Origin: Verrucomicrobiota bacterium
GTDB lineage: Bacteria > Verrucomicrobiota > Verrucomicrobiia > Limisphaerales > JACDHS01
Direction: 5' to 3'
Length of the DNA stretch: 36,833 nucleotides
NCBI GenBank assembly: GCA_013820875.1
Contig: JACDHS010000042.1
Location: forward strand, 1-36,833
Part shown: piece by piece, positions 6,401 to 29,169 of the stretch
How the letters are laid out: each line of letters begins with the position of its first letter
How positions within the stretch are numbered: position 1 is the stretch's first letter
The notes under the pieces: model-generated
Told to the model about the DNA's origin: nothing
Databases searched by the model: none
What the model saw: the letters and a program-made list of their open reading frames with translations, nothing else
Program-made: the position numbers and the translations under genes

Positions 6401-7048
6401 GCGCGAAACGCCGTCGCCATCTACTTCCGCAATGATTTTTGAATAGGCAGAGAGATGCTCGATGGCTTCGGGAACAGCGTCCAGGGTTGGTTCCGGAAGT
6501 CCTATCAAGTAGGTTTCGGCATATTCCAGGTTCAACTTCTTGCGGATGTATCCACCCATTGGCTCAATCGCCGCAAGCAGTTCAGCTTCCGTTGCTCCGG
6601 GTTTCAACTCCACGGAAACGTGATCCGCCACCACTTCGTGGCGCCCCAAAATAATCTCTTCAATTCCTTCATTCCGAAAACGGGTTTCCAGACGGATGAA
6701 CGGGTATTTCAGGGTGGTTTCAATCAACTCAGTCCGGCGAAATTCGCTGGCAGAAAGTTGTTCGAGGCGGCTATCGAGCACAGTGCCTTTTGGAAAATGC
6801 TTTAGGGCGAGCGCGGATGGACTATTTGTTTGATTAGCATTTTGTGCCGGGGGTATGAATCGTCCTGGAAACGATGCATTCTGCTGCGCAACCGCAGGAT
6901 TACCTTGCGACCAATGAGTAGAGGAAGTTAAGGGTGGTTTTCGATCATCTGATTTCTCGAGTTGTTCGGGAAGTTGCCGAGTGCCGAAGAAGTCGAACGC
7001 CGCTAACAGCAGGAAGCCGCCGACTACAATTTTACGCAGGTGTTTCAT
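3437..7048 (-). CDS. Secreted subtilisin-like (S8) serine protease with Ig, BACON-like and FG-GAP-like repeats
   Basis: An exported protease of about 1203 residues. The start chosen is the ATG at 7048 (MKHLRKIVVGGFLLLAAFDFFG), which gives a direct signal peptide and has an AGGGGG stretch just upstream; the frame is open for 22 more codons. Domain order: a propeptide-like region to about residue 220; an S8 catalytic domain with Asp267 (SDTGVN), His321 (GHGTFVAG) and Ser479 (SGTSFAAP); a jelly-roll-like domain (about 545-670, WHNEESRLET...MSFWWKVSS); an Ig-like domain (about 673-755); a BACON-like domain (about 755-845, with CSW and SWIT); and five FG-GAP/VCBS-like repeats of about 48 residues. 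Each of these repeats has a D(F/L)N.DG.xD-type calcium loop followed by an AVWFM.GTNF-like strand; one loop (DLLGNSELEI) is degenerate. Acts outside the cell; substrate unknown. It is the last gene of the sigma/anti-sigma/DUF3106 group and may belong to that regulon. Confidence 0.88.
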   Translation of the reverse strand: MKHLRKIVVGGFLLLAAFDFFGTRQLPEQLEKSDDRKPPLTSSTHWSQGNPAVAQQNASFPGRFIPPAQNANQTNSPSALALKHFPKGTVLDSRLEQLSASEFRRTELIETTLKYPFIRLETRFRNEGIEEIILGRHEVVADHVSVELKPGATEAELLAAIEPMGGYIRKKLNLEYAETYLIGLPEPTLDAVPEAIEHLSAYSKIIAEVDGDGVSRKTVIPNDARFNNMWYLHNTGQSGGLPDADIDAAEAWAIRTGSPDVVIAISDTGVNYNHSDLKDNIWTNLAEKANGLDDDRNGYRDDFRGWNFYEGNKDVMDKDGHGTFVAGIIGARGNNGIGISGVSWNCKLMIMRVLDTDGGFSSDIAEGFDYARKNGAKIINASHGGTGASVMRRAVDNLEAAGVLLIAAAGNYSENTDNIPLHPASYPNQNIISVAATSRHDSLLAFSSYGPSTVDLGAPGIAISSTTLDHSYATYSGTSFAAPLVTGVAALLQAQHPGWDCFRIRTRILNNVDKVPSLNGKCTTGGRLNAYKALVPKTTLAEALDGNGFTWTTSGHAPWFGGKIFSHDGVDSAESGKVWHNEESRLETTRTGPGKMSFWWKVSSEPNYDFLVFYVNGSEQARISGATAWAKRYFDLPSGNNTLTWRYVKDDSYSGGMDKAFLDEVIFLGVSPAITSQPASLSAFVGTNVNFSVNTTGTSPLTYQWRKNGANISGATRTSLTLSNVQVADAGNYSVLVSNAAGSAASTAASLALCNVTVSPSTASFDSAGGSGNFGITMTGGCSWSVEKTNSWITLDSSTTGTADTPFHFSVAPNESSFARAGFLTVGNRRFLVRQYGIPAPGSMFGQSISMTVTNASGSLPNNGTFLLATSIGGDAAAFRIVPLTESLPADEGTFSYSRNSSSSATLTLSGTTNYIAGLTFASPAAGVFNLQHESGETQSGIFATRTGRPDFNGDSRNDIVLQNIEGVVAAWCMQGTELVEAIPLRNKKPAATGWKVMAAADLLGNSELEIILQGATGQLAAWCMTNGTNFVKSVFLRDGVPLGAGWKVVSATDFNQDGNADLLLQHQDTRSAVWFMNGTNFLGGQHLRNQMPAGIGWRICGVSDFDGDGENDILWQHQDGRLRVWHFVATEFVAVSNLRTANSDWRAVGMNDFNDDGKDDILFQHKDRRLAVWFMDGTNFISATLLRNGQPLGGTWRIAAPK

Positions 7049-7140
7049 TGCGGAACCCCCTGCTGAAAGAGTTTGGTTGGAATCACGCGCAGACAAGCCT
7101 ATCAAGAATCCCAACTTCTACAAACAGGGTTTTTCCGTCC

Positions 7141-8124: not shown

Positions 8125-8130
8125 TGGGAA

Positions 8131-9296: not shown

Positions 9297-9385
9297 CCGG
9301 GTGGTTACATTACTTGAAAACCGCGTTCCGGGCAAAGTTGCGTTCCTTGCTTCATGTAATTCATGCCTCTAAGCTGACACATCAG

Positions 9386-12888: not shown

Positions 12889-13476
12889 CTATATTGTTGT
12901 CGTGAAAATGCGCTTCCATTGTGCGGCATGAACTTCCAAGTTGGTTTCCGTCCACACAACGTAATCCGATGCGCCAATCTTCTGTTCAACCGGCCATTGC
13001 GCAGAAATTCGCGCGGCGATCTGGCTCTCATTCCACCCGCGCGATTTTAAGCGTTCCAATTGTGTTGCCGCAGAACAAGCCACGCAAACAACCGCATCAA
13101 ATAAAACAGCGGCATTTGTTTCGAAAAGCAAAGGTATGACAACGAAACCGACCGCTTTTCCCTGTGTGCGCCAGTTTTGAATTTCCGCCTGCCAGGCAGC
13201 GCGGATCCGGGGATGAAGAATCGACTCCAGCTTCGATCGCGCAGCGGAATCGCTAAAAACTATCTTGGCCAAATCGTCTCGCCGCAATTTTCCTTCAGCG
13301 GAGATTATTTCATTTCCGAAATAACTTTTGATCTCGCATAAGGCTGGGGTATCAGGCTGAACAATTTGACGAGCGATGTCGTCCGTATCAATCAGTGAAT
13401 AGCCCTCCTTTACAAGCAAATTACCGGCGGTGGATTTTCCCATTCCAATGCCGCCGGTAATTCCGAAAAGCCTCAC
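12889..13476 (-). CDS. coaE: Dephospho-CoA kinase
   Basis: A 195-residue P-loop kinase that carries out the last step of coenzyme A synthesis: ATP-dependent phosphorylation of the 3'-OH of dephospho-CoA ribose. It opens with the Walker A sequence GITGGIGMGKST (about residues 5-16) and continues with LIDTDDIARQIVQ, in which the DxD motif typical of CoaE is visible. The segment LHPRIRAAWQAEI and the strand/Walker-B-like VVIPLLFET complete the family picture. Length is normal. The start is GTG at 13476, only 12 nt after the stop of the 953-residue exported protein gene. This essential housekeeping gene therefore appears to be the last cistron of the large exported-protein operon, unless an internal promoter exists. 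Confidence 0.95.
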   Translation of the reverse strand: MRLFGITGGIGMGKSTAGNLLVKEGYSLIDTDDIARQIVQPDTPALCEIKSYFGNEIISAEGKLRRDDLAKIVFSDSAARSKLESILHPRIRAAWQAEIQNWRTQGKAVGFVVIPLLFETNAAVLFDAVVCVACSAATQLERLKSRGWNESQIAARISAQWPVEQKIGASDYVVWTETNLEVHAAQWKRIFTTTI

Positions 13477-13488
13477 GTTGTTGCTGTC

Positions 13489-16350
13489 TTAAGGCGAATA
13501 GCTAACTTTGAATGTGCAAGCGTTGGTCAGCACAGGAATCTGGACTCCTAACAATCCAACGGTGGAACCACTTGTAATTTCGGTGACCTGTTCCCATGTG
13601 GTGAAATCGTATGTGCACCAGAGAATGTATGTCGTATTCGCAGCAGCATTCCAATCCAACTGAACCGCTCCAGTTTCGGTGATTTGAGTCTGCAGCACAG
13701 GCCCATCAAACGGAAACTCGTCATCTTTGTTCACGATTCCATCCCCATCAGAATCAATTGAATTACTGTCACGTAAAGCGGCATCAACATCGATCGTCCC
13801 GATAATATTACCCTGCGCGTCCCGTAGGTTTACAGCAGTACGACCTGCTCCCATCCAGCGGATACGTCCCCCGGTCTTGGATTCAAATGCACTTGGATCA
13901 AAAGGACTTTCTTCCAGAGTAATATTTCCAAACTCGGACTTTAAGCTCTGTAAATTCTCGAAATAAATAGTGAAATTAGGATCAACATTCAGAGCGTCTG
14001 TATAGCCTGCCTCAAAATCTTCTTCAATTTCCTCACTGAGGGCCAAATTCCTGACGTAAAGAGCGTTCTGCGCACCAATAGGACGAAAGCTATAAATGCT
14101 TGCAAACCCGCCGTCCAACCAAAGATGGCCAAGTGCCGCGTTGTTCTGAAACCCAGAACTACTGAGCCCGCGATCCTCGCCAGCCCAACGAATTTCCACC
14201 TCGCTAAATGCGTTTGCGTATCCCCAAATCGTAGTTCCTAACAAGTCGCCGCTTGCAGGTTTAACAGGCAAGTCGAAACCGTTTCCACTGCGCCATAGAT
14301 TGTTCCCATCTATCCCCGTGTCATTCAAGGTGCCGGCAACGGCTAGCGTCATGCGTCTATCAGCAAATATTATCGTATTCGACACAATCAAATTATTCCC
14401 CGACAGGCTAATACCTCCACCAGCCCCGACAACGGAGATCGTGCCATTTGTAAGCGCAGCGTTGCCGAAACGAAGGTCAGCATTACCAAATCGAGTCAAC
14501 AGTTCTCCAGAATGAATTAAGTTATTCGCCGAAACCGTCAAACCGCCTACTTCTATCCTGCCATGATTAACAAACCAGTCATAGGGAGCACCATCTGGTG
14601 CATTTGGCTGGCTGCCCTGCATGAATTTGACTTCATTGATTGCAGAAATCACACCGCCATCCAGGTTCGTCAGCGCAGTCAATCTCGGCAAAGAGTCCTC
14701 CCATACAATTCGTTCCGAAGTTATATTCAGATGGCCTGCGTTGCTAATGGTCAGGGAGATGCAGTCGAGATTCAGATTCTCTTGCACATTGAGCCGATCG
14801 TTCAATACCAGATGGTCCGCCGTCAGCTTGAGATGGTGAACTGTCGGTTGACCTACTCTCAATGAACGGGCATCAACAATCAGGACGGCGAAATTATCTC
14901 TGTATGGTTCGTTATCTATGGTGTAATTCCGTCCCCAAAAAGAAGAATATGCTTTGACCTCGCCAACAAGAGTGGGGAGTTCATCCGGAATCAAATCGTC
15001 TAGCGTGAGAAGACTATTTGTACTCCTGAGCGAGACATCCACGAAAGGCGATACAATGACTGACCGACGGTTTCCATAGAAATGATTCGTGGCTTTGATG
15101 GAAAGATAATTCTCCGCATTAATGCGTGCAGCAGCGAGATTTAACTCACCTGCTGTGATTTCGATCCGTCCAGGCAAGTTGGTAACCGATGCGGTATCCA
15201 AAACGTTCGTGTCGTGTCGAACGGAGTTGGCTTGCAAAGTCGCTGCCCAGGCACTGTACCTGATAGGAATGATAGAAGTAAACACCGGCAAGGGAGAATT
15301 GGGCAAGGCCGCAGTCGTTTCGACATCCCATCCGAAAAACCTCCTGAATCTCAAGAGATCGAAATTGCTTGGTTGGTATGTGTCCTTCGGCAGAGTAGGA
15401 CTAAAAGAGGAATCCCGAAAAAATATGATGTTTGGATCGTTTGCGAAATCATCAAAAAACGAAAGTTCAACATCAAGGTCTTCTCCCGTAACCGGATGAA
15501 CGACAGTTGTATACCAATTAATCCCAACTGGTGAAAATTCACCATCGTATGGATCGAATCCGCCGGACTTGAAGAAAGTTAATTCGGTGGCGAGTCGCGA
15601 ACCTACAGTACCATCCGGTTCAGTGGGAAGTATCACGTAAGCAACCTGAACGTAACTTGTTCGACCGGAATTCAAGTCGAATGTCTCACGAACAAATTGC
15701 TGCATTGTAGGTTCCGTACCGCTTACGTTGACGAAGCGGGTTCTATAACCTGAACTCACGACATTGGTCACCAAGTGACTTGGGCTAAAAGCAGACGCCC
15801 CAAACGCATCATTGTAAGAACCTCTGCCCAAGATTCCCCCATCAGAACCCCAATATTCGTTGAATATTCCAGAAGTCAAAAACCCTGAAAAACCAAATGC
15901 ACCGGCACTGATTACACTTTGGCTCAAATCAGCTGTTCGAGCTTTTAACGTCACTCTTCCGAATGATCCGCTGGTCAAAGTACCACGATTGTGGATATTT
16001 GTAGCCGCGATTTCCAGATTCCCTCCAACCCTGATCACTGCCCCATTCTCGTTGATGAAGTTCCTCCCTGGAATTGTCGGCTCCGTCCCTGTTGGAACGG
16101 TATGAAAGCGGAATCCAATATTGGATTCCATTAGCCCCTTATTCGTGTGATTTAGAGTGCTGTAGGTGAAGTACGGCCCCTGAAGGAAACCATTGGTTGC
16201 ATAGAATTGGCCTTCATTCAAAAAGTTCCTCGCGTCGATATGTGGCGCGGTGGTGACAATGCCACTGTTGACATAGTTCTCAACCGTTTGCCCCACAACC
16301 GTCTGAACGACCAAACCCGTAACGAGAGCTGAAACTAAAATTCTATGCAT
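13489..16350 (-). CDS. Large exported haemagglutinin-like (beta-helix) protein
   Basis: A 953-residue protein with a signal peptide (MHRILVSALVTGLVVQTVVG). The body resembles filamentous haemagglutinin-type beta-helix repeats: short units with ITNSG/NRGTL/GNLEIAATNIHNRGTL, repeated 'L.L.NN.IVSNTI.' rungs and many Asn-Ser turns, for example around residues 100-190 and 540-700. Near residue 870 there is a calcium-loop DSDGDGIVNKDDEFPFDGP. It is followed by a C-terminal beta domain of about 70 residues (LDWNAAANTTYILWCTYDFTTW) of the kind that ends many verrucomicrobial exported proteins. No transporter barrel or TPS partner gene is present. The gene starts 20 nt after the upstream 876-residue protein gene and is followed by coaE. 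It probably acts on the cell surface or outside the cell. Function unknown; adhesion or matrix role is inference. Confidence 0.75.
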   Translation of the reverse strand: MHRILVSALVTGLVVQTVVGQTVENYVNSGIVTTAPHIDARNFLNEGQFYATNGFLQGPYFTYSTLNHTNKGLMESNIGFRFHTVPTGTEPTIPGRNFINENGAVIRVGGNLEIAATNIHNRGTLTSGSFGRVTLKARTADLSQSVISAGAFGFSGFLTSGIFNEYWGSDGGILGRGSYNDAFGASAFSPSHLVTNVVSSGYRTRFVNVSGTEPTMQQFVRETFDLNSGRTSYVQVAYVILPTEPDGTVGSRLATELTFFKSGGFDPYDGEFSPVGINWYTTVVHPVTGEDLDVELSFFDDFANDPNIIFFRDSSFSPTLPKDTYQPSNFDLLRFRRFFGWDVETTAALPNSPLPVFTSIIPIRYSAWAATLQANSVRHDTNVLDTASVTNLPGRIEITAGELNLAAARINAENYLSIKATNHFYGNRRSVIVSPFVDVSLRSTNSLLTLDDLIPDELPTLVGEVKAYSSFWGRNYTIDNEPYRDNFAVLIVDARSLRVGQPTVHHLKLTADHLVLNDRLNVQENLNLDCISLTISNAGHLNITSERIVWEDSLPRLTALTNLDGGVISAINEVKFMQGSQPNAPDGAPYDWFVNHGRIEVGGLTVSANNLIHSGELLTRFGNADLRFGNAALTNGTISVVGAGGGISLSGNNLIVSNTIIFADRRMTLAVAGTLNDTGIDGNNLWRSGNGFDLPVKPASGDLLGTTIWGYANAFSEVEIRWAGEDRGLSSSGFQNNAALGHLWLDGGFASIYSFRPIGAQNALYVRNLALSEEIEEDFEAGYTDALNVDPNFTIYFENLQSLKSEFGNITLEESPFDPSAFESKTGGRIRWMGAGRTAVNLRDAQGNIIGTIDVDAALRDSNSIDSDGDGIVNKDDEFPFDGPVLQTQITETGAVQLDWNAAANTTYILWCTYDFTTWEQVTEITSGSTVGLLGVQIPVLTNACTFKVSYSP

Positions 16351-16370
16351 AGAAAAGGTTTATCGTTTGT

Positions 16371-18968
16371 TCAACGTCCGAAAATGTTGTCTTCCAGTTG
16401 CTGAAGATTACTGCCTGTCGGATAAATAATTGGCGCGTTTGTCGATCCATCAAAAGAACCCCACACCCGTGTCATCGGATTGCTATCATTTAACAAAAAT
16501 CCAAGCCTAGGCTGGTTCAGGAACTGGTTCCCCAATCCGGCATTATAGTTGAAGTACATTGGAAAGTTTCGGTTGAACGTAATCGTGATTCGCGGGAAAA
16601 TGACACCGGGCCCTGCAAGGCCCGAATTTCCGTTTTCAGAACCGTTATGAATATTGCTATTGTCAATCCAGTTCCCTGTATCGGTTCGCGCGGCGGCTGT
16701 AAAGTTTAGATCATTTGCAGAGAAAACAATGTCGGGATGTGTGGCAGTTCGACGAACCACCTGATTGATCACTTGGTTGGAAACAATCACAGTATCCACG
16801 TATTCATTGGTAACCGAAAGGAACGCAGCCCCCACCAACGAATCGAAATGAACCCGCACAAACGTTAACTTATCAATCCCCGGACGAAGCCCGATACTAT
16901 TGGTCGGTGCCAACAATCCCACTGGATACACTTCAAAAATTCTGTTAGTCGCAAAGGTATATACCTCGCGTCGAATTCCAAAAATGTTAGTAGCAAGATC
17001 ATTTGTGCTAACAAATTCAATTGGGAAGACATTCAGGAAATAGTTGGTTTCGTTTCGAATGTAAGAAACGGTATTTGTTTGTTCAATACCCCCGTTTGCC
17101 AGATTGGTAAATACGATCGTATTCGTTACCGAGACGACATCTACCAATTGAGTCGACAGGATTTGATAACCAAACAAATTCGTAGGTACAATATAGATAC
17201 TGCCCACCGGAACATTTGTTAAAACAAGGCTTGATATAACATTTGTTGCAAATGGACTTCCAGCAGGATCATATGGATTAGGCGCTACAATGGTTTCCTC
17301 GACAAGAATTGTAGCGTTTGTCCCAATCGAACTGGAATCTCCAAAATTAGTAACAACATTGCCAAAAACGTAATTGTAGTTTGTGGCAATGTTCGTCGTA
17401 AAGAACCACTGATGATCGATACTATAGATCACTGCAGGATCCCACGGAGAATTGGTCAGGTAGGCAACGTAATTCGAACTAACAATATTTGTAAAGTAAC
17501 GATTGCTGGATAAAATCAGCAAGTCGGGATACAAACCCAGCAAGCTCCCCGGATCGTTGGTGCGCGACTGCTCGAAAAACGTAGTCAGGTCTGTGGTTAA
17601 CAGAAGCTCCAATTGAGAGGTGTTTGTCCGAATGGTGAATTGGGCTTCCGCGAAGAAATCTGTGTTGGTGCTAATAACCACGTTGGTAATAAGAGCGTCT
17701 GTCGAAAATATATCGGGAACGAAACGGACCAAATTTGTCGGCATAATGAAGAACTCACCATTTCTAATGAACTCCGTATCAAAGTATTCCTCGACAACGT
17801 TCGTCTGCACGGTAGGCATGAAAGGGTTATATTCCAAGGCCGGAACAATATCTAAAATCCGAACGTAAATCGGACGTTCGCTGTGTTCGTCATAAATCAC
17901 AACATTGCCAAACTCGTAATTGTAAAGAGTTACAATATTGGTTGTGTAGATTTCTTCGATTACCTGGACTGGATTCGCGGGGTAATTAGTAAAATAAGTG
18001 ATTCTGTTTGTCGTAATCAAGGCACCGAGACTTGCGTTTGTCCCAGTAATCCACAGATTGGTATACATTATGTTGGTGGCATAAAGATCCGCTACTGTAT
18101 TCGTTGTATTCTGCGATTGCTTGAGTAATTCGGCAAGATCGAGTGTCAGCAATTGAATCGGATTTAGAAGGTTTGTATGCACAACCCGGACATCTGGAAG
18201 AAGTTCCTCAACGTTGTAGTTGTTCGTTTGCAGCAAGTACTTCAGCCCACCCGCGTCATCGCGTGTGAAACCAGAGAAATACGCACCGGGCTGGAAAACT
18301 GTCGAAACCGATGAAACTGCTCCACTAGCAAAAAACTCTGTAGCATCCAATGGCTCTACCAGTGGATAAGCTCCAATGGGAGGGCCAGCATCCTGAATGT
18401 CAATAATCGTACTATATGTGTAAATTTTACCGTTAATGTTGGGCGTGGGCTCATATGAATAAGGATCGAAATTTCGCTGAATGACGTGGTAGTTTGTCAA
18501 CCCTGGAAACACAACACGCTCCCGCAACCGCCAAACACCAACATCAGGATCCGCCAACCCCATTTCTTCTAGAAGCAAATGCATCCCAAAAGATTTGATA
18601 TCGTAAATCTGCAATGACTGAGCACGATAGTTGAATCGCTGACTTTCCAACGGAAAATCGTCCAAATTCATTTGAGAGGCAGGAGGGAGTGCATTGAAAA
18701 TGGCGATCCCTTCTTCGATTGCTTTAACACCGTTTGTCCCAAAATAATTGATGAAAGAAGAGTCAAAACCATAAGTGACAATAGGTGTATTCCAGCGATA
18801 CTCCTCATCTCTGTTCATCCAACCGCCTATGTCACCGGGTTGATCATAATTCAACCTCCTGGTCTGCCACGACTCCAAAGGACCGAGCAGGGAAAATGCC
18901 CAGGTCGCAGGCGCAACGAAACAGAAGAAACCAACCAGAACTAAAAAACTAATTTTTTTAAATCGCAT
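16371..18968 (-). CDS. Large exported Asn/Thr-rich protein with a duplicated ~185-residue module
   Basis: A protein of about 865 residues from the ATG at 18968 (the frame is open to a TTG at 19001, inside the upstream stop region). MRFKKISFLVLVGFFCFVAPATWA is a clear signal peptide. An N-terminal domain of about 200 residues (TPIVTYGFDSSFINYFGTNG) vaguely recalls matrixin-like exported proteins, but no HExxH zinc motif is present. Two related modules follow. The first has YNYEFGNVV (about 349-357) and FFIMPTNLV (about 406-414). The second has YNYVFGNVV (about 531-539) and IYIVPTNLF (about 591-599). Their starts also match (PIQLLTLDLAELLKQSQNTT and TSQLELLLTTDLTTFFEQSR). The protein is very rich in T-N dipeptides. 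Codons are AT-rich compared with glnD. I do not recognise its function. Confidence 0.75.
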   Translation of the reverse strand: MRFKKISFLVLVGFFCFVAPATWAFSLLGPLESWQTRRLNYDQPGDIGGWMNRDEEYRWNTPIVTYGFDSSFINYFGTNGVKAIEEGIAIFNALPPASQMNLDDFPLESQRFNYRAQSLQIYDIKSFGMHLLLEEMGLADPDVGVWRLRERVVFPGLTNYHVIQRNFDPYSYEPTPNINGKIYTYSTIIDIQDAGPPIGAYPLVEPLDATEFFASGAVSSVSTVFQPGAYFSGFTRDDAGGLKYLLQTNNYNVEELLPDVRVVHTNLLNPIQLLTLDLAELLKQSQNTTNTVADLYATNIMYTNLWITGTNASLGALITTNRITYFTNYPANPVQVIEEIYTTNIVTLYNYEFGNVVIYDEHSERPIYVRILDIVPALEYNPFMPTVQTNVVEEYFDTEFIRNGEFFIMPTNLVRFVPDIFSTDALITNVVISTNTDFFAEAQFTIRTNTSQLELLLTTDLTTFFEQSRTNDPGSLLGLYPDLLILSSNRYFTNIVSSNYVAYLTNSPWDPAVIYSIDHQWFFTTNIATNYNYVFGNVVTNFGDSSSIGTNATILVEETIVAPNPYDPAGSPFATNVISSLVLTNVPVGSIYIVPTNLFGYQILSTQLVDVVSVTNTIVFTNLANGGIEQTNTVSYIRNETNYFLNVFPIEFVSTNDLATNIFGIRREVYTFATNRIFEVYPVGLLAPTNSIGLRPGIDKLTFVRVHFDSLVGAAFLSVTNEYVDTVIVSNQVINQVVRRTATHPDIVFSANDLNFTAAARTDTGNWIDNSNIHNGSENGNSGLAGPGVIFPRITITFNRNFPMYFNYNAGLGNQFLNQPRLGFLLNDSNPMTRVWGSFDGSTNAPIIYPTGSNLQQLEDNIFGR

Positions 18969-18988
18969 AGGACGAACGCAAGATTGTA

Positions 18989-20893
18989 TTAGCGTAAACA
19001 AATGACCCGATAAAATGCGGGATCTTCTTCTGCACTGATTTGAATCAAATCAAAATTCCCGTAAGCAAAGCGAGGTGTTCCCACATTGCTCCAGCCCGTC
19101 AAATTACTCGCACGCTGCACCTGATAGACAAATCCCAATTGAGTATTCCATGAAAACCGCATCCCTTGCAACGTTCTCTGCATGTGTGTTTTAAGAACAC
19201 TGGCTGCGTCCATCGGGTTTGTGCCTGCTAAAAACTCTGCAAAATTGGATGCGCCATCTCCGTCGGAATCAGTATCACCAGCAGGCCAATCTGCGGGATT
19301 ATCCCCCCAAATGGATGCCTGCCAATCATCCGGCAAGCCATCACCATTCAAATCTTCACCCCAAGTACGCCCCTCTACCGGAGCAGACAATGGCGACCGC
19401 CGACCATCAGTCAACTCATACAACAGGCGAAAAGTATAATGAGTTCCAGGCGAAAGATTAATGACCGCGATTTGCATCCCTGTCACGATCATGGGAGAAG
19501 AAAGCCCACCATCCATGTGAAGTTCGTAGAAAGCGACTGGATAGCCCGACAATTCAGGCCATGTGACGCTGAGTTCAGTGGAACTCAACGCCGAAATGTA
19601 AGGTGAATCTGGGGGATAAAGACCACCATTTTCTCCTTGCACAACATAGCGTTGCGCAAATAGGTCGAGACTTGCCGTACCACCAATAAAGCTGGACCAA
19701 GCAACCAGAAAACGCCCAGTCTCATCTGCGGCAACAGTCGGTTGGATTTGCCTATTGATGCTCGTTGTGTTGATTTGGATTTCGTTTCCAGCAAGGTCGC
19801 CGGCAGAAGTCAGCAAACGACCAAATACCCCGTCATGAGAACCATCTTGTCCGAGACTGGTCCAGACCACCAACGCGTTTTCATCATGGCTGGCCAGTTT
19901 AGGAGCAAATTGGTCTCCGTTTCGATATGTATTCACTACAACCGGTGCGCTGATCGGTGAATTATTCACATCGAAGGCCCTGGCATATATATCCCAACTG
20001 TTCGTGTGCGCAGGTGTTAATTGTCCCCACGCAACCAGAAAACCACCAGATTCTCTCGCCGCTACAGATGGCTGCGACCCAATTGCATCCAGAGCACTGA
20101 GTTGAAACTCATCGGAAAGAGGCAATCCCACAGGACTAAACACCCGCCCCATGATATCAACCACATGAGAACCAGCGTTGGTCGCGCCAACACCACTCAA
20201 TCTCTCAGAGGCCCAGACAAGAACAAAGTTACCATCAGCGAGAGCAGCGACGCTTGGATTTCGCTGATTCAGATGGGTGGTTTGGTTGACCTGGAGGTCG
20301 CTGCTTAATGACACACCTTCTGGGGAGATCACCTTAGCGTAAACGCCCTGCAAGCTGCCGTCCTGCCCCTGGCTCGACCATGCGACGACCAAATTCCCAT
20401 CATTCAAACATGCAATGACCGGGTGCGCCTGCTGTTGGTTTGTGTAGGTATTAACCAACAAATCTCCCGTCGCGAATATTCCATTAGAACCCAGGATGCG
20501 AAGGTAAATTTCCTGCATTCCGATTGAACCACCCTGCCAGACAAAAGCGACCCCGCCGTCGTTCAGCAATGCAGCTTGTGGGTTTTCCTGCTCCCCAACT
20601 CCGATTTCATTAATGCGAAATGAATTGTATTCCCCGGACAAACTACTGCCCAAGCGGCGGGCACTGATGCCGGCACCAAAGCCATCGGTCACGTTATCCT
20701 GCCAAACCACCCACCCGCCGTCCGGGCCTATAGCGACATGACTCGCCACCTGATCCCCAGGCAAGGTTCCGATGATTGCATATTCGCCAGCAAGCGTTGT
20801 AAAGTTGTTTTGACCGCCTACTGCAGTTGCAAAGACGACAAAGCTGAGCGAAATCGCACAGAATGCTGAACGTAAAAAAATACAGCTACGCAC
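18989..20893 (-). CDS. Large exported 7-bladed beta-propeller protein with FN3 and calcium-loop modules
   Basis: A 634-residue protein starting at GTG 20893, with a signal peptide (FLRSAFCAISLSFVVFATAVGG). Residues about 45-420 hold seven repeats, each with a 'DGGFVVAWxSxGQDGS' core: WVVWQD, VAFVWQG, LVVAWSS, FVLVWAS, FLVAWGQ, LVVWTS and FLVAWSS. They are spaced about 50-60 residues apart, which predicts a seven-bladed propeller. Next comes an FN3-like domain (PPDSPYISALSSTELSVTWP, about 425-510), then DLNGDGLPDDW and DSDGDGASNFAEFLAGTNP calcium loops of the thrombospondin-3/dockerin kind. A C-terminal beta domain ends in AFYRVICLR. It leads a run of three exported-protein genes 20 nt apart. 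It probably acts on the cell surface or outside the cell; function unknown. Confidence 0.8.
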   Translation of the reverse strand: MRSCIFLRSAFCAISLSFVVFATAVGGQNNFTTLAGEYAIIGTLPGDQVASHVAIGPDGGWVVWQDNVTDGFGAGISARRLGSSLSGEYNSFRINEIGVGEQENPQAALLNDGGVAFVWQGGSIGMQEIYLRILGSNGIFATGDLLVNTYTNQQQAHPVIACLNDGNLVVAWSSQGQDGSLQGVYAKVISPEGVSLSSDLQVNQTTHLNQRNPSVAALADGNFVLVWASERLSGVGATNAGSHVVDIMGRVFSPVGLPLSDEFQLSALDAIGSQPSVAARESGGFLVAWGQLTPAHTNSWDIYARAFDVNNSPISAPVVVNTYRNGDQFAPKLASHDENALVVWTSLGQDGSHDGVFGRLLTSAGDLAGNEIQINTTSINRQIQPTVAADETGRFLVAWSSFIGGTASLDLFAQRYVVQGENGGLYPPDSPYISALSSTELSVTWPELSGYPVAFYELHMDGGLSSPMIVTGMQIAVINLSPGTHYTFRLLYELTDGRRSPLSAPVEGRTWGEDLNGDGLPDDWQASIWGDNPADWPAGDTDSDGDGASNFAEFLAGTNPMDAASVLKTHMQRTLQGMRFSWNTQLGFVYQVQRASNLTGWSNVGTPRFAYGNFDLIQISAEEDPAFYRVICLR

Positions 20894-21048: not shown

Positions 21049-21855
21049 TTATTTCAAAGCAGATGTCGCTTCGGCTAACCGTTCCCAATCTTTATTCTGC
21101 CCGGACGGCGCTTGGATTGGCGCAGACCAGTTCGGTGAATTCCAATTCCGCATCTCACGGTCTGTCAGCCTCCATGCTTCGACGTGACCATCCGCAAATG
21201 AGAGAACATAGCTTGAATCATGCCGCTTATTGGCTGGCATACTAACGAATTTCCCCGATGGGCCTTGCCGAAGAAAGAACTTACCATCGCTAATACTGTC
21301 TTCGTGCTCATCGAGCAGAACAGCCAACCCTGCCGGAGAAGGGCGCGTAATATCAGTGAACTTTCGATAGATCCGATAATCCCCCTGGTTTTGGCCGGAA
21401 ACGTTCAGCCCATTAATCCAACCGTTCATTGAGTAACTGCGCGTGCGGGGAACTCCATCCATGCGACTGTTGTCCGCCGGGCAACGGTAAATGGATAAAG
21501 ATTTGTGGAATTGGTATAATTTGCTTTGCACGATCAAATTAAAATTGGTGGCTTCTTCCGGTTTTCGCATATCACCGAGAACCCACACCTCTTCATTCGG
21601 GGTGGGGGTCAGACCCCTGGGCTCACACCGAAGCAGATTGTCTTTGTTCTCATGGGAATACATGGTCCAAGCCAGTGTCAATTGCTTCAAATTGTTCAGG
21701 CAAGACGCTCTCAGTGCTTTTCCCTTAGCTTTCGACAACGCCGGCAGCAGCATTCCAGCGAGAATCGCGATGATCCCGATCACAACCAGCAACTCAATTA
21801 GCGTGAAGGCCGCGCCTGATGAGTGAGTCTCACGCTTTTTAAATGCGTTCTTCAT
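21049..21855 (-). CDS. Prepilin-type protein, H-X9-DG family
   Basis: A 268-residue type II secretion/type IV pilin-like protein. The N-terminus has the class III prepilin signature: a short positively charged leader ([17 protein letters not shown]), then [20 protein letters not shown]. The leader peptidase should cut before Phe, with Glu at +5 and a 20-residue hydrophobic helix after it. The globular part follows (about 60-245). Near the end, [13 protein letters not shown] contains the H-X9-DG motif (His, nine residues, Asp-Gly). This motif defines a large subfamily of prepilin-processing-associated proteins in Planctomycetes and Verrucomicrobia. No prepilin peptidase is in this window. It could be the pilin-like subunit for the nearby PilM/secretin cluster; that is inference, as many genomes carry dozens of such genes. 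Confidence 0.92.
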
Positions 21856-21916: not shown

Positions 21917-22849
21917 TCAAAGCAACGAATCCTGTTGCGGACCTAGTTTTCTTTCCAATTCCTGTTGAAGCGTTTTGAAACCCCATTCTTTATAGCATTC
22001 AAGCAATAATTGAGTCTCAGGCGCCGCAATCGCCAAATCGTCACAACAGAGAACATCCGGCAAATTGTCGTGTAGCTGAATCAAATCACGATTTCGCTTC
22101 AACAAAGGCTCCGAAGCTTTCAATGCTGCCTGAATTCGAGAGGAACTCACCTCATCCAAGCGCCTGTAAAGTTCTTCAATGGAACCAAATTGCTTCAGCA
22201 ATTTGGTTGCCGTGCCCGGACCTATGCCAGGCACTCCCGGAATATTATCGACGGTGTCCCCAATTAAACTAAGCCAGTCAACGATTTGCGAAGGTTCGAC
22301 TCCTGTCTTGGTGCGAACATCCTCCACTGTCCAAACCTTTGGTTCTTTGTCGTTTGGATTCAATAGACCAACATTTGCGTCTATAAGCTGGAGGAAATCT
22401 TTATCGGAACTGGCAATGACGACGGAGAAATCTTCCCTCACGGCCCGCTTCGTAAGAGTCGCAATCCAGTCATCTGCTTCGATTCCGTCCCGGTGATAGG
22501 ATCGAATGTTTGCCGCCTTCAGAAAACGCACAATTTCGTCCATCTGCATTTCCAGCAAGGAAGGCATTGCGGGACGATGTGTCTTATACTCGGGATGCAA
22601 GGCCATCCGTTCGGATGCCAAGCCGCCGTCCCATACGACCATTTGATGGGTCGGTTGCAGGAATGCCTGCATTTTCCCCAGCATCCGGATAAAACCATAA
22701 ATGGCGTTGGTAGGCTTGCCAGTCACCGGAGAGGCGAGCTGGCGAATTGCATAAAACGCCCGATACGCATACGCATGTCCATCCACGATGAACAGGCGTT
22801 TTGCAGAAGGCTGCTCGGCAGTCTGTTTGGACACGTTATCCAGTGACAT
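21917..22849 (-). CDS. Stand-alone 5'-3' exonuclease (PolA N-terminal/flap nuclease family)
   Basis: A 310-residue nuclease matching the N-terminal exonuclease domain of DNA polymerase I, without the polymerase. It starts its fold with LFIVDGHAYAYRAFYAI (metal-binding Asp), then WDGG, then the helical arch region EYKTHRPAMPSLLEMQM. DGIEADDWIATLTK and VVIASSDKDFLQLI carry the conserved acidic residues, with an H3TH motif and PGVPGIGPGTATKLLKQF afterwards. It should cut 5' flaps during replication and repair. The ATG at 22849 is 33 nt after the secretin stop, so it is probably the last cistron of the pilus-like cluster. That placement is unusual but the spacing is clear. Confidence 0.9.
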   Translation of the reverse strand: MSLDNVSKQTAEQPSAKRLFIVDGHAYAYRAFYAIRQLASPVTGKPTNAIYGFIRMLGKMQAFLQPTHQMVVWDGGLASERMALHPEYKTHRPAMPSLLEMQMDEIVRFLKAANIRSYHRDGIEADDWIATLTKRAVREDFSVVIASSDKDFLQLIDANVGLLNPNDKEPKVWTVEDVRTKTGVEPSQIVDWLSLIGDTVDNIPGVPGIGPGTATKLLKQFGSIEELYRRLDEVSSSRIQAALKASEPLLKRNRDLIQLHDNLPDVLCCDDLAIAAPETQLLLECYKEWGFKTLQQELERKLGPQQDSLL

Positions 22850-22882: not shown

Positions 22883-25543
22883 TTATTGACCAATGGCGGC
22901 TTGCGATGGAATCGCTGTCCGCGCAAATGGAAGATCCTCATCCGCATGCACGCGCCTGCCAGAAGGATCAATGATCGTCGGGGTCACAAAAATCACCAAG
23001 TTGCGCTTGTCTGAAGTTTGCGACTCGCTGCGGAACAAACGTCCGACATACGGGAGGTCGCCGAGCATCGGAACCTTGTCTTTGATTTTCCGGATATTCT
23101 CAGAAATCAGGCCACCCAGAACGATCGTCTGCCCATCGTAAACAATGCAACTGGTCGTCACTTGCCGAATTCGCATCCGCGGCAGAGGAAGCGACACAGT
23201 CAAGCTTTGACCTTGTTGCGTGACAGCAGACGGAACAAAGTCACCGGGGTCTTCATAGCCGAGGAACTCGGTCAACGTCGGAATGAGTGTCATCTGAATC
23301 GAGTAACCATCCGCTGAGACATATGGAATAACGTCCAGGACAGGACCAAACGGAATGGCAGCGACGTCAAACGTAAACCTTGGCTGGCTATTCTGAATAA
23401 TAGTATCACTGCCTGAGGCCGGAGCTGAGCTTTGATTGTCATCTGATTCAACCCCAACGACGATGGTGCGAAGATCCAAAACAGAAATTTGAGCCTGGCG
23501 TCCGCTCAAAGTAGTTACCCTTGGTGCGGAAAGGACGTCCGCGCCGCTCCGTTGTTCCAACGCACGGATGACCACCCTAAACTGCGGATCAGTTAAGATC
23601 CCACTGATCGTGCCCAATTCAGGAATGGATGCGTTGTTCGCGCCGAATTGGTTACGTACCCCCGAGCTAACCAAGCCGTCAGAGGTTCGAGGAAATTGGG
23701 TTGCAGGCCCGACGAATCCCGGACCAAAGCCTGGTCCCGGAAAAATACCACTTGGATTGGCCGGACTCGGCTGACCGGCAAAGGAAGGTGCGGTGCCACC
23801 TTGTCCACCGATACGACCTCCAGCCGCAAGCGTGTTGCCCAGGAACCAATCAAAGCCGAGCGCCTTGCTGTCTTCCTGCCCGATTTCGGCAAATTTCGCT
23901 TCGATTGTAACCTGAGGGGGGGGAGTGTTGAGACGCTGGACAGCCACCTCGATGATTTCGAGATCCTGCAAGCTTCCACGGACAATCAAATCCCCGGATC
24001 TATCGTTGAAGAAAACGCTTTTGGGGGGATCCAGAATCACTCCGGTAGAACTGAAATATTCGCGCACAAGATCGTTGACGGATCGCAAAGTATTGGTTCT
24101 GGTCACAAAATTCAGCCCAACACCACCGCCACCACCACCGCCGCCACCACCCTGGCTGATTTGACTGATCATAACTCGAGGCAAACTGAAGGAACCGCTT
24201 TCCTGACCGCCACCACCACCACCGCCCCCACGACCACCACCACCACCTCCGCCTGAACTGTTAATTTGATCCCCAAGACTCAATGCGCCGACGCTTTCCA
24301 AACCTTGCAGAAACGTATTTGGATCAACCCGAAAAGACCGGGTGAAAAGAGGTGTGGGTTCGGGTGTTCGCGGAGAGAACACAATCGCATAATCGCGGAT
24401 TTCGTAACGAATAGGCTGGTCCGCCGATGTCACGATTGCATCCAGAACATCTGTCATTCTCAAATTACGCAACGGCGGGTTCAATTTCACCGTGACCGTA
24501 GCAATGTCCATGGCCGGCTCAATTTGTTCGATAATTACCGGCGGAGCATAAGGATCGGTCGGAAGAGTTGGGAAAGCTCCAGAAGCATCGCTGTGCGGAT
24601 TGACCATGAAATTGAGACCAAGCCGATCTGGATCGCGCTTGATCGATTCATCTGTTAGATGTTTCAAAACCTCAACCAGCGGCAAACCATCGTAGCCGAC
24701 TTCATTCAAGCGAATCGAATTCAGCTTGCCAGCGATTTCCTGGCGCTGCGGACTGGTATTAACAACGTCTCTTTGGTTTATGACAGGGTTGGGGAATGGC
24801 AGTTGATCCCGCTTTACTGCTGGAGCCCACGCGGTCTTCACTTCGACCATTGCATCGCGAGCGACCAATTCCTGGTCACGAATCTGGCGGCCAAAGCGCT
24901 GGTCTCGGATTAATTGCAGAAAATAATTGGCTGCCCTGTTATCAGGTTCAACTTGAAGGGCTTGCCGGAGCTTGGTTTCCGCTTCATTGATGTGACCTGC
25001 TTCAAACAATAATTTACCATCATGCACCAACGTCCCGGCGGTGATTTTTTCGGCTTGGAACTCGGGAATTCTTGCCAGTGCATCAGGGCTTGGCACCATT
25101 CCGCGCGACGCACTAATTGCCTTGTCGTTTTCCAGTTTGAACTTAAGCGCTGCGGCACTTTGTGGATTCACGCGCAAGGCGCTTTTGATTTGAGAGTCTG
25201 CTTCCTGAAGATCACCCCGACGGCGTGCTTGCTCTGCCAATTGGAGGCGGAGGTTCACCAATCCCTCAACAACTGCAGCTTTATCTGCCTCAACCGTTCC
25301 GCCAACCAACCCTACCCGCGGAAATAAAGCCCAGGCATCTTCATAAGCTTTGGCGGCTTCCACCAATCGGCCCTGGCGTTGCAACGACTGAGCATCTACC
25401 AGCTTCATTCGCAGCAGACGAATAGCCTCCTGACGACGCACAGCCTCCTCTTCCGCCAAAACTGCGGGCGCAGGTTGGGCCTGAAGAACGGCGGTATTAA
25501 ATAAAAAGATTAGTCCTAGGGAGGATACAACTGCTCTCATCAT
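22883..25543 (-). CDS. Secretin (type II/IV pilus outer-membrane channel), Amuc_1098-like, with polyglycine tracts
   Basis: An exported protein of about 886 residues. The signal peptide is MMRAVVSSLGLIFLFNTAVLQAQ; ATGs lie at 25543 and 25540, and the frame opens at a TTG at 25552. Residues about 30-220 are TPR-like helices (LQRQGRLVEAAKAYEDAWAL; LFEAGHINEAETKLRQALQV). Residues about 280-395 form an STN/N0-like domain. Two polyglycine tracts follow, around 431-446 and 465-474, then an N-domain (RTNTLRSVNDLVREYF...FNDRSGDLIVRG). The secretin domain covers about 545-870: VTIEAKFAEIGQED, SGADVLSAPRVTTLSGRQAQ, VLDVIPYVSADGYSIQMTLI, and GQTIVLGGLISENIRKIKDK with VPMLGDLPYVGRLF, the family fingerprint. 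It forms a gated ring in the outer membrane. It lies in the same order as Akkermansia Amuc_1098. Confidence 0.92.
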   Translation of the reverse strand: MMRAVVSSLGLIFLFNTAVLQAQPAPAVLAEEEAVRRQEAIRLLRMKLVDAQSLQRQGRLVEAAKAYEDAWALFPRVGLVGGTVEADKAAVVEGLVNLRLQLAEQARRRGDLQEADSQIKSALRVNPQSAAALKFKLENDKAISASRGMVPSPDALARIPEFQAEKITAGTLVHDGKLLFEAGHINEAETKLRQALQVEPDNRAANYFLQLIRDQRFGRQIRDQELVARDAMVEVKTAWAPAVKRDQLPFPNPVINQRDVVNTSPQRQEIAGKLNSIRLNEVGYDGLPLVEVLKHLTDESIKRDPDRLGLNFMVNPHSDASGAFPTLPTDPYAPPVIIEQIEPAMDIATVTVKLNPPLRNLRMTDVLDAIVTSADQPIRYEIRDYAIVFSPRTPEPTPLFTRSFRVDPNTFLQGLESVGALSLGDQINSSGGGGGGGRGGGGGGGGQESGSFSLPRVMISQISQGGGGGGGGGGVGLNFVTRTNTLRSVNDLVREYFSSTGVILDPPKSVFFNDRSGDLIVRGSLQDLEIIEVAVQRLNTPPPQVTIEAKFAEIGQEDSKALGFDWFLGNTLAAGGRIGGQGGTAPSFAGQPSPANPSGIFPGPGFGPGFVGPATQFPRTSDGLVSSGVRNQFGANNASIPELGTISGILTDPQFRVVIRALEQRSGADVLSAPRVTTLSGRQAQISVLDLRTIVVGVESDDNQSSAPASGSDTIIQNSQPRFTFDVAAIPFGPVLDVIPYVSADGYSIQMTLIPTLTEFLGYEDPGDFVPSAVTQQGQSLTVSLPLPRMRIRQVTTSCIVYDGQTIVLGGLISENIRKIKDKVPMLGDLPYVGRLFRSESQTSDKRNLVIFVTPTIIDPSGRRVHADEDLPFARTAIPSQAAIGQ

Positions 25544-25582
25544 GGGTTTCAATTCTGATTTTCAAAAGCCGCTAGGCGACTT

Positions 25583-26356
25583 TCATGGCGCGGGTTTCCA
25601 TCTAATCGTTGTCTGCTTCTGGTTAGAATTGGCCTGGACTCTAACTTCATTCTCAGTGATGGCAATGATTTTGTAACTCTCACCGCCAAAAGTAATCACG
25701 TTCCCGACACGCTGGTCATTAAACGTTTTGTTTTCCAAATTATAATTCAAATCAGCAGCATAACCTTCCAAACGCTGGAATGGCTGAGTGGGTGTTATGA
25801 CAACTTCCTGTTTACTCTCGTTCAATTCCAAAGTGAATCGCTCGGGAGTTTCTGCGGAGCCCTCCACTTTCTTTAATGTAAACAAATCGGCTTTGCCCCC
25901 TTCATTTACGTAACGTTGAACCTTTCTGCGTTCCGCGGGCCTGGCTGCCGCTTCCTTGGTAATGCCGAAATAAAATCCTGTCCCAGCCTGCCGCTCATAA
26001 TTAATAACCAGGTGCAGCGGTGAAACTTTTGTTATGGCAAGTGCATCCGCCGGGTTGGAAGACTGCATTTTGATCAATGTTCCATCGGCTTTCTGTTTCC
26101 ACATGGCCGGATTAAACAATACGTGGGAACCAGAAAGATCCACGCTTACCGCCTTGCGGGCGTTTTCAAGCGCGGCTTTGTACGGAGCCAAATCCACGGG
26201 AGGAAATGGCTTCGGTTTGCCAGTTTGAGCCAGTGACACCTGAACCTCCTCCTGTTTCTGCTGAATCGCCAAAAAGACCCAGATAGCCGTTGCTGCCAGC
26301 GCTAGCAATGCAAGGCTGAGAACGATTTTTTCGTAATGTTTTTTTAGAAACTCCAT
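25583..26356 (-). CDS. Amuc_1099-like inner-membrane component of the pilus-like cluster
   Basis: A 257-residue protein with one N-terminal transmembrane segment (about 11-31, IVLSLALLALAATAIWVFLAI) and a periplasmic remainder. The C-terminal part has short beta strands with GNVITFGGESYKIIAITENEVRVQ, a small barrel-like module reminiscent of pilus biogenesis proteins of the PilP kind. No enzyme motif is visible. The start codon at 26356 lies 1 nt before the stop of the Amuc_1100-like gene, so translation is probably coupled. It sits between the PilO-like gene and the secretin gene, as does Amuc_1099 in Akkermansia. A periplasmic bridge between inner-membrane assembly and secretin is the likely role (inference). 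Confidence 0.72.
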   Translation of the reverse strand: MEFLKKHYEKIVLSLALLALAATAIWVFLAIQQKQEEVQVSLAQTGKPKPFPPVDLAPYKAALENARKAVSVDLSGSHVLFNPAMWKQKADGTLIKMQSSNPADALAITKVSPLHLVINYERQAGTGFYFGITKEAAARPAERRKVQRYVNEGGKADLFTLKKVEGSAETPERFTLELNESKQEVVITPTQPFQRLEGYAADLNYNLENKTFNDQRVGNVITFGGESYKIIAITENEVRVQANSNQKQTTIRWKPAP

Positions 26357-26357
26357 T

Positions 26358-27344
26358 TTACTGGGTTCGATTCAATTTCACGACTTCAAGCAGCAAAGTC
26401 ACTTGCAACGGCTGCTCCGAAAGCACAGTTTCGGCGACTGAACCAGGCGTCGTTGTTCGGGGACGCTGTTGATAAACGGGCTGCTGCGCGACAGGGCGCC
26501 GTGCCCCGGAATCCTTGCCACCTGCAAGGTCAAATTCCATCGGGGAGACCGTTCGTTGCTGAGCCTGCGGCCTTGGCGCGTAGTAGATTGGAGTCGGCAT
26601 GGCGCCGCCACCGCCGCCACTGCCAAATTCGCCAGTTGCAGGAACGACAAAAACTGATTTTACCACGATGAAATTAGTTGCACGCTGGAATGCTTCCAAT
26701 ACAGCCGCCAATTCACCACTAAACCCGCGAAAGCCAACCTGGTATGGGGCAAAGATGCCAAACTGGTTCGACACTACCGTCCCCCCCATAAACTCTCCCG
26801 TGCCTGTATCCTGAGGCGAAACGGGAACTCGTTGAACGCTATCCAATGCGTTCACACGCGCCGCAAATAAAATGTTACAAATTGCTTCAATATCATTCAA
26901 CTGAGGAACCCAATTTTCGATACTGCCAGCGGGAAAGTTCAATGATCTTCGTTGGGCCGAAAACGTAAAATCAAATTGCTCAGGCAGACTGACTCCGGAT
27001 TGTTCTGCTTTCGTGCGCAACCCTGCTATCGTGTTTCCCAGCATGTTAACGAATGCCTGATCGCTCAGTTTGGGAGCGGCGCTCGCAACGGGGATAACTG
27101 ACGCGGCTTCTTTGCGAAACTGCCGGAGCCGCTCCTGCTCATTCTTCGCTGCCTTAATGTTCTCATCATTCGGGAACGCACCGGCATTCAATTGCTGCCA
27201 GTTAGCCAACTCCTGATTCAGTTCTTCCTGAATCGCAGTGTCCCGACTCATATTGGAAAGCCAAAGCCACACGGCAACCCCCAGTAAAACCAAGGCGGCA
27301 GCAGCGCTGATCACGAACACTAGATTTTTTTTAATCCAAGCCAT
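26358..27344 (-). CDS. Amuc_1100-like (PilO-like) pilus-cluster protein
   Basis: A 328-residue protein with a cytosolic stub, a transmembrane helix at about 9-29 (VFVISAAAALVLLGVAVWLWL), a coiled-coil stretch (about 33-85) and a periplasmic beta-rich domain. The last residues, VTLLLEVVKLN, match the strand that ends the Akkermansia Amuc_1100 fold, and the whole layout (TM, coiled coil, ferredoxin-like/PilO-like domain, low-complexity insert, terminal strand) agrees. Residues about 240-300 are Gly/Pro/Gln-rich (GSGGGGGAMPTPIYYAPRP). Amuc_1100 is the outer-surface protein known to interact with host TLR2. A homologue in a non-gut-type genome points to an ancestral cell-envelope role. It overlaps pilM by 14 nt and the next gene by adjacency. 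Confidence 0.75.
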   Translation of the reverse strand: MAWIKKNLVFVISAAAALVLLGVAVWLWLSNMSRDTAIQEELNQELANWQQLNAGAFPNDENIKAAKNEQERLRQFRKEAASVIPVASAAPKLSDQAFVNMLGNTIAGLRTKAEQSGVSLPEQFDFTFSAQRRSLNFPAGSIENWVPQLNDIEAICNILFAARVNALDSVQRVPVSPQDTGTGEFMGGTVVSNQFGIFAPYQVGFRGFSGELAAVLEAFQRATNFIVVKSVFVVPATGEFGSGGGGGAMPTPIYYAPRPQAQQRTVSPMEFDLAGGKDSGARRPVAQQPVYQQRPRTTTPGSVAETVLSEQPLQVTLLLEVVKLNRTQ

Positions 27345-29169
27345 ATTTCAAGTTAAACGGCTTCTTGAGTTTGGCGCTGACACCAAACGAAAAAGTAATC
27401 GCCCCTTCGTCTTTCACGATCGGTTCCAAACTCAATCCCTCCTTCGTGAAATAGGGACTGGCCTCCAATTCAGCTTTCAAGGCGAACGCCAATTCTGAAT
27501 TAGCGTTGGGGGTAACAGACTCTCTGTCCACCCCACGACAAAGAAACGAGATCATCGAAATTTCATTTTCACCCGGGGGCGCTGACGGCGCCGAATCGAC
27601 TGGTTGTTCAGGCGGGGGGCCGAAGCCCATGAGGCCGCTTAAATCGTCCTGGCCTGGCAAAAAGCGTCCAGGCTGTTCAAAACCAGCAGCGGATTCAGCA
27701 ACATGCGGTGAAAAAGTTTCAATCCAGACTCCCACATCAGTATCGAGCTTTTGTTTTGTCTTGGTTTCGGCCTGGATCACTATCCGGCGCAGTTCGTTCA
27801 AGACTTCAGCCCAGTAACGCCGTGCTGAGATCAATTCAGAGATCTTGTCCGTCTGCTTCTTGACGTTCTGCAATTCCGTCTGCGCACTGCGCATCGTCGC
27901 CTGCTTCGCCATCAACGGTTGCACTTTCTGCTTCAGTTCGTCCAATGTGGTTTCTTTAATTGAGACCACTTTCCCGTGAAACCATCCCACCGCAAAGACG
28001 ATTGCCACCAGCGTAAACATTGCGGCAATCAAAAAAGGCTTTTTCTGCTGGAATTCCTGGCGCTGAATAGAAGTCTCAGGCATCAGGTTCAGCTCGACCG
28101 GGCAATGCGCAAGGTTACGCAAGCCCAACCCGACCACTTCACCAAAGGAATGCGCCACTCGGGACAGATCTTCGACGTTCACGGAAGGATCAATCTGAAC
28201 GTTCCGAAATGGATTAAAATAATCGACGGGAATATTGAGCTTCTCGGCGAAGAACTGCGCGGTATATGCCATCACCGAAGCGCCACCCGACAAAAAGAGA
28301 CGTTGCGGAACCGTTCCACCCTGTTGTCCGCGGTAAAATTGAATGGTCTGGTTCACCTGGATGTGCAGGCGGGTCATCACCTGGCGCGCAATCTTGGAAA
28401 CTGCCGCCGCCTGCGGATCTTCCGGTTCCTCGTAAGCACCACCCAGACTGACAAAACCTTTTTCAATCTTGGCCACTTCAGCCTCGTTGAATTTCAGCTT
28501 CGATTCGTTCGCAAAATCCTGAGTGATCGCGTTTGCGCCGATGTTGATGCTTCGGGAGTAAAACTTGCCTTTTTCGAAGAACAGGAGATTGCTCGTCTTG
28601 GCGCCGATATCGAGCAGCATTGAGCACCCCTCACCTTCCAGATCGCCATAATTATAGCGGAAAGAATTGCAGAGCGCGGCCGGGGAAACATCCACCAACT
28701 GCAGTTTCAACCCACTGCCATCACCAACACGAAAGAGACCATCGACAACATCGGTCTTGATTGCGACCAGAAGAACTTCCAGTTCGCCACCGGCTGTTGT
28801 GCCGACGATTTGATAATCCCAGGCAACTTCCTCCAGCGGGAAAGGAACATTCTGCCGGGCTTCATATTCGATGATTTGCCCGACTTTACCGGTATCCACC
28901 GGCGGTAATTTTACGAACTTGGAGAAAACGTGAAATCCAGGAGCACAGACGTTGGCGATCTTCGAGCGAACTCCTCGCTCCGCGATCAATTCCTGTAGAG
29001 CGCGCAGGACAACCTGTTCGCGAGTCGATTCCTGCGCACCTTCCAACCCTAAGGACTTGGTTCCGTACTGAACCAGTTTCAGTCCACCAACTTCGTTCAC
29101 CTCGAACTCAGCCAGCTTCAGAGTGCCTGCCCCGAAATCTATCGCTATAAATGATTTTGAATTCAGCAC
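27331..29169 (-). CDS. pilM: PilM-PilN fusion protein, Amuc_1101-like
   Basis: A 612-residue protein whose first 370 residues are PilM (actin-like ATPase fold): FIAIDFGAGTLKLAEFE (phosphate-1 loop), SMLLDIGAKTSNLLFFEKG (phosphate-2), and LFLSGGASVMAYTAQFF (adenosine site). A transmembrane helix follows at about 378-397 (PFLIAAMFTLVAIVFAVGWF). Beyond it, a coiled coil with VKKQTDKISELISARRYWAEVLNELRR resembles PilN, then an exported domain reaching residue 612. In standard type IV pilus systems PilM and PilN are separate proteins that bind each other. Here they form one polypeptide, so the cytosolic ring is tied to the membrane. The GTG start at 29169 has only a weak ribosome site. It is the first gene of the cluster and overlaps the next by 14 nt. 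Confidence 0.88.
   Translation of the reverse strand: MLNSKSFIAIDFGAGTLKLAEFEVNEVGGLKLVQYGTKSLGLEGAQESTREQVVLRALQELIAERGVRSKIANVCAPGFHVFSKFVKLPPVDTGKVGQIIEYEARQNVPFPLEEVAWDYQIVGTTAGGELEVLLVAIKTDVVDGLFRVGDGSGLKLQLVDVSPAALCNSFRYNYGDLEGEGCSMLLDIGAKTSNLLFFEKGKFYSRSINIGANAITQDFANESKLKFNEAEVAKIEKGFVSLGGAYEEPEDPQAAAVSKIARQVMTRLHIQVNQTIQFYRGQQGGTVPQRLFLSGGASVMAYTAQFFAEKLNIPVDYFNPFRNVQIDPSVNVEDLSRVAHSFGEVVGLGLRNLAHCPVELNLMPETSIQRQEFQQKKPFLIAAMFTLVAIVFAVGWFHGKVVSIKETTLDELKQKVQPLMAKQATMRSAQTELQNVKKQTDKISELISARRYWAEVLNELRRIVIQAETKTKQKLDTDVGVWIETFSPHVAESAAGFEQPGRFLPGQDDLSGLMGFGPPPEQPVDSAPSAPPGENEISMISFLCRGVDRESVTPNANSELAFALKAELEASPYFTKEGLSLEPIVKDEGAITFSFGVSAKLKKPFNLKYGLD

Follow-up and report, generated by a model that had tools for sequence, protein, structure and literature searches.

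Amuc_1100 of Akkermansia is an immunomodulator, and secretin/pilus operons that carry an Amuc_1100-type gene are spread across the class Verrucomicrobiia, often with coaE, the gene for dephospho-CoA kinase, behind them. The Amuc_1098-Amuc_1102 cluster of Akkermansia muciniphila (PMC5332112) contains homologs of the secretin, 1099, 1100 and PilM-like genes of the locus described here, with an identical gene order. Some outgroup genomes are labelled Akkermansia-type solely from their family-model scores, which are the best; in them coaE directly follows the secretin gene, much as it follows three genes for exported proteins, A, B and C (the trio), in the locus studied here from the order Limisphaerales. 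Unlike the Amuc cluster, the Limisphaerales locus has this trio, often with an exonuclease gene and genes for exported proteases, between secretin and coaE, and the outgroups examined are without the trio. Essential coaE also lies inside the type IV pilus operon of Acinetobacter baylyi, as in the verrucomicrobial locus, but there the phylum and the pilus genes are different, and the passage on that operon does not mention the trio (PMC5542475). The trio is apparently undescribed and sits on a known kind of locus. The open-access literature searched, whose coverage is incomplete, holds no description of it, and sequence searches of Pfam, NCBIfam, PHROGs and the PDB assigned neither B nor C to a named family, in line with the suggestion of the initial annotation that the set may lie outside the named systems. 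The order is large and largely uncultured, and the three exported families that make up its fixed set are unnamed.

The locus lies in a 5.7-Mb draft genome, within a stretch of 36,833 nucleotides analysed as a whole (the window; Table 1). Four collinear genes on the same strand, in an order that is conserved in relatives, match the Amuc_1098 (secretin), Amuc_1099 and Amuc_1100 (both alignment-complex proteins) and Amuc_1101 (PilM) families, with scores below the NCBIfam equivalog cut-offs (341 against 750 bits for 1098, 22 against 50 for 1099, 54 against 180 for 1100 and 486 against 650 for 1101). The genome also has many genes for T2SSE/PilB-type ATPases. This pilus-type secretin operon, which was absent from the initial annotation, is the strongest clue to the function of the trio, and the presence of Amuc_1098-1101-type genes upstream changes how the trio is interpreted. 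We consider it somewhat probable that A, B and C are a lineage-specific accessory set of the Amuc_1098-Amuc_1101-type secretin/pilus machine and are secreted or displayed by it.

Table 1. Genes of the secretin-trio-coaE locus and a nearby exported protease gene in the window
Feature	Position	Strand	Remarks
Exported subtilase	3437..7114	minus	Ig and FG-GAP domains
coaE (dephospho-CoA kinase)	12889..13476	minus	Pfam 7e-48, unambiguous
Protein C gene	13489..16350	minus	953 aa; putative signal peptide, predicted interrupted beta-helix, C-terminal beta domain
Protein B gene	16371..19001	minus	876 aa from likely ATG at 18968; putative signal peptide, probable matrixin-fold domain, two Asn/Thr-rich modules
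Protein A gene	18989..20893	minus	634 aa; putative signal peptide, predicted propeller, FN3, TSP3-like motif, C-terminal module
Pseudopilin-like protein	21049..21855	minus	N_methyl, DUF1559
Stand-alone 5'-3' exonuclease, PolA N-terminal type	21917..22849	minus	many relatives have it between the secretin and A genes
Secretin, Amuc_1098 family	22883..25552	minus	TPR repeats and secretin domain
Amuc_1099-type pilus-system protein	25583..26356	minus	family-model match
Amuc_1100-type pilus-system protein	26358..27344	minus	family-model match
PilM-like protein, Amuc_1101 family	27331..29169	minus	family-model match

The initial annotation had described three closely spaced genes for exported proteins with coaE as the last gene, and both parts of this description hold. 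The stop of A and the likely ATG of B leave a gap of 20 nt (the listed TTG start of B would give a 13-nt overlap with A), B and C are separated by 20 nt and C and coaE by 12 nt, all on the minus strand. A, B and C of the window each have an N-terminal signal-peptide-like segment, as do the majority of the A, B and C proteins in the loci of relatives. The pseudopilin-like gene, which is not conserved and has no counterpart in 60 tabulated loci of relatives, and a 155-nt gap intervene between the exonuclease gene and A, so that the trio may have its own promoter. Promoter and terminator scans of the window gave sites not above those in shuffled sequence. The same pilin gene gave the only match, a weak one, to the Verru_Chthon cassette models (TIGR02596-TIGR02600), and A, B and C gave none.

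The conservation of the trio was followed in two sets of loci from relatives, 60 cut by place and 80 found independently by B, which share genomes and are therefore not independent of each other. A-like matches occur in all of about 95 relatives, with the strong ones at the locus, whereas 82 of 97 have B and 68 of 94 have C. Loci of about 50 families show, nearly without variation, the order PilM-1100-1099-secretin-(exo)-A-B-C. In the two partly overlapping sets A and B are adjacent in 56/56 and 71/72 loci that have both, and B and C in 50/51 and 60/61, with median gaps of 2-9 nt for both pairs, so that the trio is indeed a conserved unit in relatives. Wherever 1.5 kb or more of sequence is available upstream of A (55 loci of one set and 58 of the other), the secretin gene lies there on the same strand, at a distance of at most 2.1 kb; it is within 1.6 kb of A in 50/55 and 48/58 of these loci and at 1.6-2.1 kb in the others. 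Separate occurrence, which would speak against a unit, is seen as a minority pattern: lone extra B paralogs are present in L314, L318, L319, L225 and L231 (the last two belonging to the 80 B loci), and C is missing in two families that retain A and B. In these two families (L136, L116, L141 and L158) B is about 1,300 aa long and has several paralogs, and one genome (G003) has two complete PilM-to-C loci (L101 and L102), reflecting a duplication or two organisms in a bin that is 4% contaminated. The records of the relatives that B retrieved name Verrucomicrobia subdivision 3, Limisphaerales or Pedosphaera, apart from some doubtful names of metagenome-assembled genomes (Akkermansia, Gammaproteobacteria), and the window is therefore assigned to the Limisphaerales.

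The distribution across the class was examined in 189 genomes, 34 order-mates and about 155 others, that were searched with alignments of B and of the A propeller. A and B are both present in 32 of the 34 order-mates, and outside the order there was one weak match for each among the approximately 155 genomes. A scan of genome contigs with a single A sequence had returned no matches because its patterns are not conserved, whereas the alignment of B succeeded. The Amuc_1098-type secretin is found across the class and the trio is restricted to the order, implying that the trio is an order-level innovation on an older machine. One order-mate without A or B (G034, 95% complete) has the arrangement pilM-1100-1099-secretin-exo-coaE, with exonuclease gene and coaE overlapping by 10 nt (L259), and this locus is an empty site for the trio. 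In other orders coaE comes directly after the secretin gene in the 15 loci L263-L277 and in L280, L284, L293, L296 and L297, the outgroup locus L300 reads secretin-exo-coaE, and in about half of the outgroup genomes examined coaE was not seen next to the secretin gene. The simplest history is that the trio was inserted, in the ancestor of the order, into an ancestral secretin-(exo)-coaE operon and is specific to this order. The initial annotation had regarded the downstream coaE as the odd part of the operon. The outgroups and G034 reverse this view: coaE is the ancestral neighbor of the secretin gene and the trio is the newcomer. The idea that the polarity of an essential coaE, by keeping the trio switched on, caused the arrangement is rejected because the adjacency of secretin and coaE predates the trio. 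As the ancestral last gene of the operon, coaE is uninformative on the function of the trio. Orphan surface proteins are linked here to a defined machine, with a natural empty site and outgroups as controls, and it becomes possible to test what this secretin does outside the gut.

The slot between C and coaE is variable. Among loci with at least 5.5 kb of sequence behind C, taken from the two overlapping sets, C is followed by coaE in 22, by a subtilase gene in 20 and by another gene in 24. Many order-mates encode relatives of the exported subtilase of the window at this place, before coaE; in the window the subtilase gene is separated from this position by glnD on the other strand. Two loci have two giant open reading frames between C and coaE (L261:674-17428, 3224 and 2304 aa; L262:989-17280, 3148 and 2275 aa), and the 3224-aa protein, the one that was scanned, has Calx-beta domains and propeller repeats of the DUF5122 type. 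The family to which the window belongs has one other genome (G001), in which an exported M36 fungalysin of 2124 aa with P-domains and DUF11 repeats is encoded directly before coaE (L315:8063-14437, minus strand); its contig stops next to the locus, and G001 was therefore left out as a test of the trio. The range of this cargo, from proteases to reading frames of 2,275-3,224 aa, and the existence of lone B paralogs away from the locus are what would be expected if the trio consisted of ordinary secreted or surface proteins that exploit a strongly expressed operon and have no physical link to the secretin machine, and the same may hold for the exported proteases and giant proteins that relatives encode in this slot. 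Because the slot behind C accepts such varied exported cargo, this hitch-hiking has to be weighed, and the co-location of the trio with the secretin may reflect shared expression only. However, the trio is invariant, with the same families in the same order beside the secretin, unlike the variable cargo behind it, and we regard hitch-hiking as rather unlikely. The glnD gene that separates coaE from the subtilase gene in the window encodes PII uridylyltransferase (9230-12163, plus strand), and a glnD match is also present near the secretin gene in two outgroup loci (L299 and L304). Immediately upstream of the subtilase gene, 7141-8613 (minus strand) holds a gene for a DUF3106 protein and a 160-aa open reading frame.

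In protein A, Trp is conserved in seven columns with a spacing of about 55 (residues 64, 119, 172, 227, 289, 344 and 399), and these sequence repeats, which span approximately residues 37-418, indicate a seven-bladed propeller. They are followed by an FN3 domain at residues 428-508, for which the Pfam match is weak (5e-5, just below the cut-off) and the comparison as a profile with chitinase FN3 gives 4.5e-7, so that the propeller/FN3 assignment of the initial annotation is upheld. A TSP3-like motif at residues 542-563 and a C-terminal module complete the protein; the module occurs about 30 times in the genome, on exported proteins. PilY1/PilC tip proteins (PF05567) are also propeller proteins encoded beside pilus secretin genes, raising the alternative that A, B and C form a PilY1-like tip or priming complex and serve this pilus as tip adhesin in place of PilY1. 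The seven repeats recall the PilY1 propeller, and the trio genes lie beside genes for the secretin, PilM and PilN/PilO-like proteins. PF05567 was not found over the cut-off in 57 genomes of the order, so that the trio could be its substitute, but all 14 control genomes were equally negative and the sensitivity of this search is therefore undemonstrated. Against the alternative, the propeller of A is predicted from sequence repeats, neither A nor its relatives match PF05567, A has no vWA domain and a different domain order, and no minor pilins are conserved with the trio, the pilin of the window included. A role in place of PilY1 therefore seems doubtful.

Protein C is a beta-helix in the predicted structure (mean pLDDT 84). 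The helix is broken by an insert, and its main part, at approximately residues 395-835, is followed by the motif DSDGDGIVN and a C-terminal beta domain. With the model of C, Foldseek by itself returned nothing significant, and the best alignments of a second-look structural comparison were with the secretion domains of the two-partner-secretion exoproteins HMW1, HxuA and EtpA (Z 14.7, 14.5 and 14.2), which are right-handed beta-helices as well. The initial annotation called C a haemagglutinin-like beta-helix protein; the beta-helix stands, with a fold closest to these domains, but by sequence C is not a TpsA protein. The fold match would also suit a two-partner system in which C, as a TpsA-type haemagglutinin, has its own outer-membrane route. 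This is very improbable: the matching region of C is internal (residues 395-835) rather than N-terminal, the Pfam haemagglutination-activity domain was not found in 19 relatives, and no TpsB-type transporter is annotated among the genes neighboring C in the window. The view that the three proteins are unrelated in fold holds in general, although a TSP3-like DxDxDGxxN motif is common to A and C, and their C-terminal modules look alike.

Protein B begins with a domain that is confidently predicted at residues 36-275 (pLDDT mostly >90) and that probably has a matrixin fold, at approximately residues 36-260 of the model. In the second-look structural alignment the best 50 chains were all matrixins, with karilysin at the top (Z 6.0, in a range below 8 where matches can be due to chance), and many of them superimpose with an rmsd of 2.1-2.5 over about 95-100 residues, as for another karilysin entry (2.2 Å over 98 residues). 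Foldseek alone gave no significant match with the B model, so the assignment is probable and not proven. The matrixins, MMP family M10, which include collagen-cleaving enzymes of animals, carry the zinc site HExxHxxGxxH with its catalytic Glu, whereas B resembles them in predicted fold but lacks this site: HExxH is absent from all of 132 relatives, and in 48 aligned relatives the Gly-Leu of the active-site helix is invariant, but neither the catalytic Glu nor any of the three zinc His positions is conserved. The conserved TRDDVGGLRYLY helix of B presumably resembles the end of the matrixin domain. The retention across an order of a non-catalytic protein with a probable matrixin fold is unusual in itself. 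Behind this domain, B contains the Asn/Thr-rich duplicated module that had been noticed initially (residues 312-451 against 490-632, 33% identity, E 1e-10; 24% N+T in residues 271-660). The module of about 140 residues is present in two copies here and in 0 to 5 copies in relatives, and a conserved C-terminal region follows at approximately residues 700-876.

As accessory proteins of the secretin machine, A, B and C would be made together with the secretin complex, would cross the inner membrane by Sec, as their signal-peptide-like N-termini suggest, and would then be released or displayed through the outer-membrane secretin. Located on the pilus or the cell surface, A, with its propeller and FN3 domain, could form a complex for binding or adhesion together with B and C. 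In such a complex C would be the beta-helix stalk, and B would contribute a binding domain of matrixin fold that has no catalytic activity and is carried by variable spacer modules. The surface set proposed initially is a plausible idea that is now tied to a machine, and a surface complex is putative. Still more tentatively, A-B-C may possibly be an undescribed extracellular machine of the Limisphaerales built on the Amuc_1098 secretin, an adhesion or capture complex with a dead matrixin center and a stalk of variable length that works together with the exported proteases encoded behind it. At the other end of the window, beyond the PilM-like gene, an XcyI-type restriction endonuclease is encoded at 34356-35351 on the minus strand (PF09571, E 7.5e-102), and the neighboring open reading frames at 33272-34243 and 35164-35910 may be part of a restriction-modification system.
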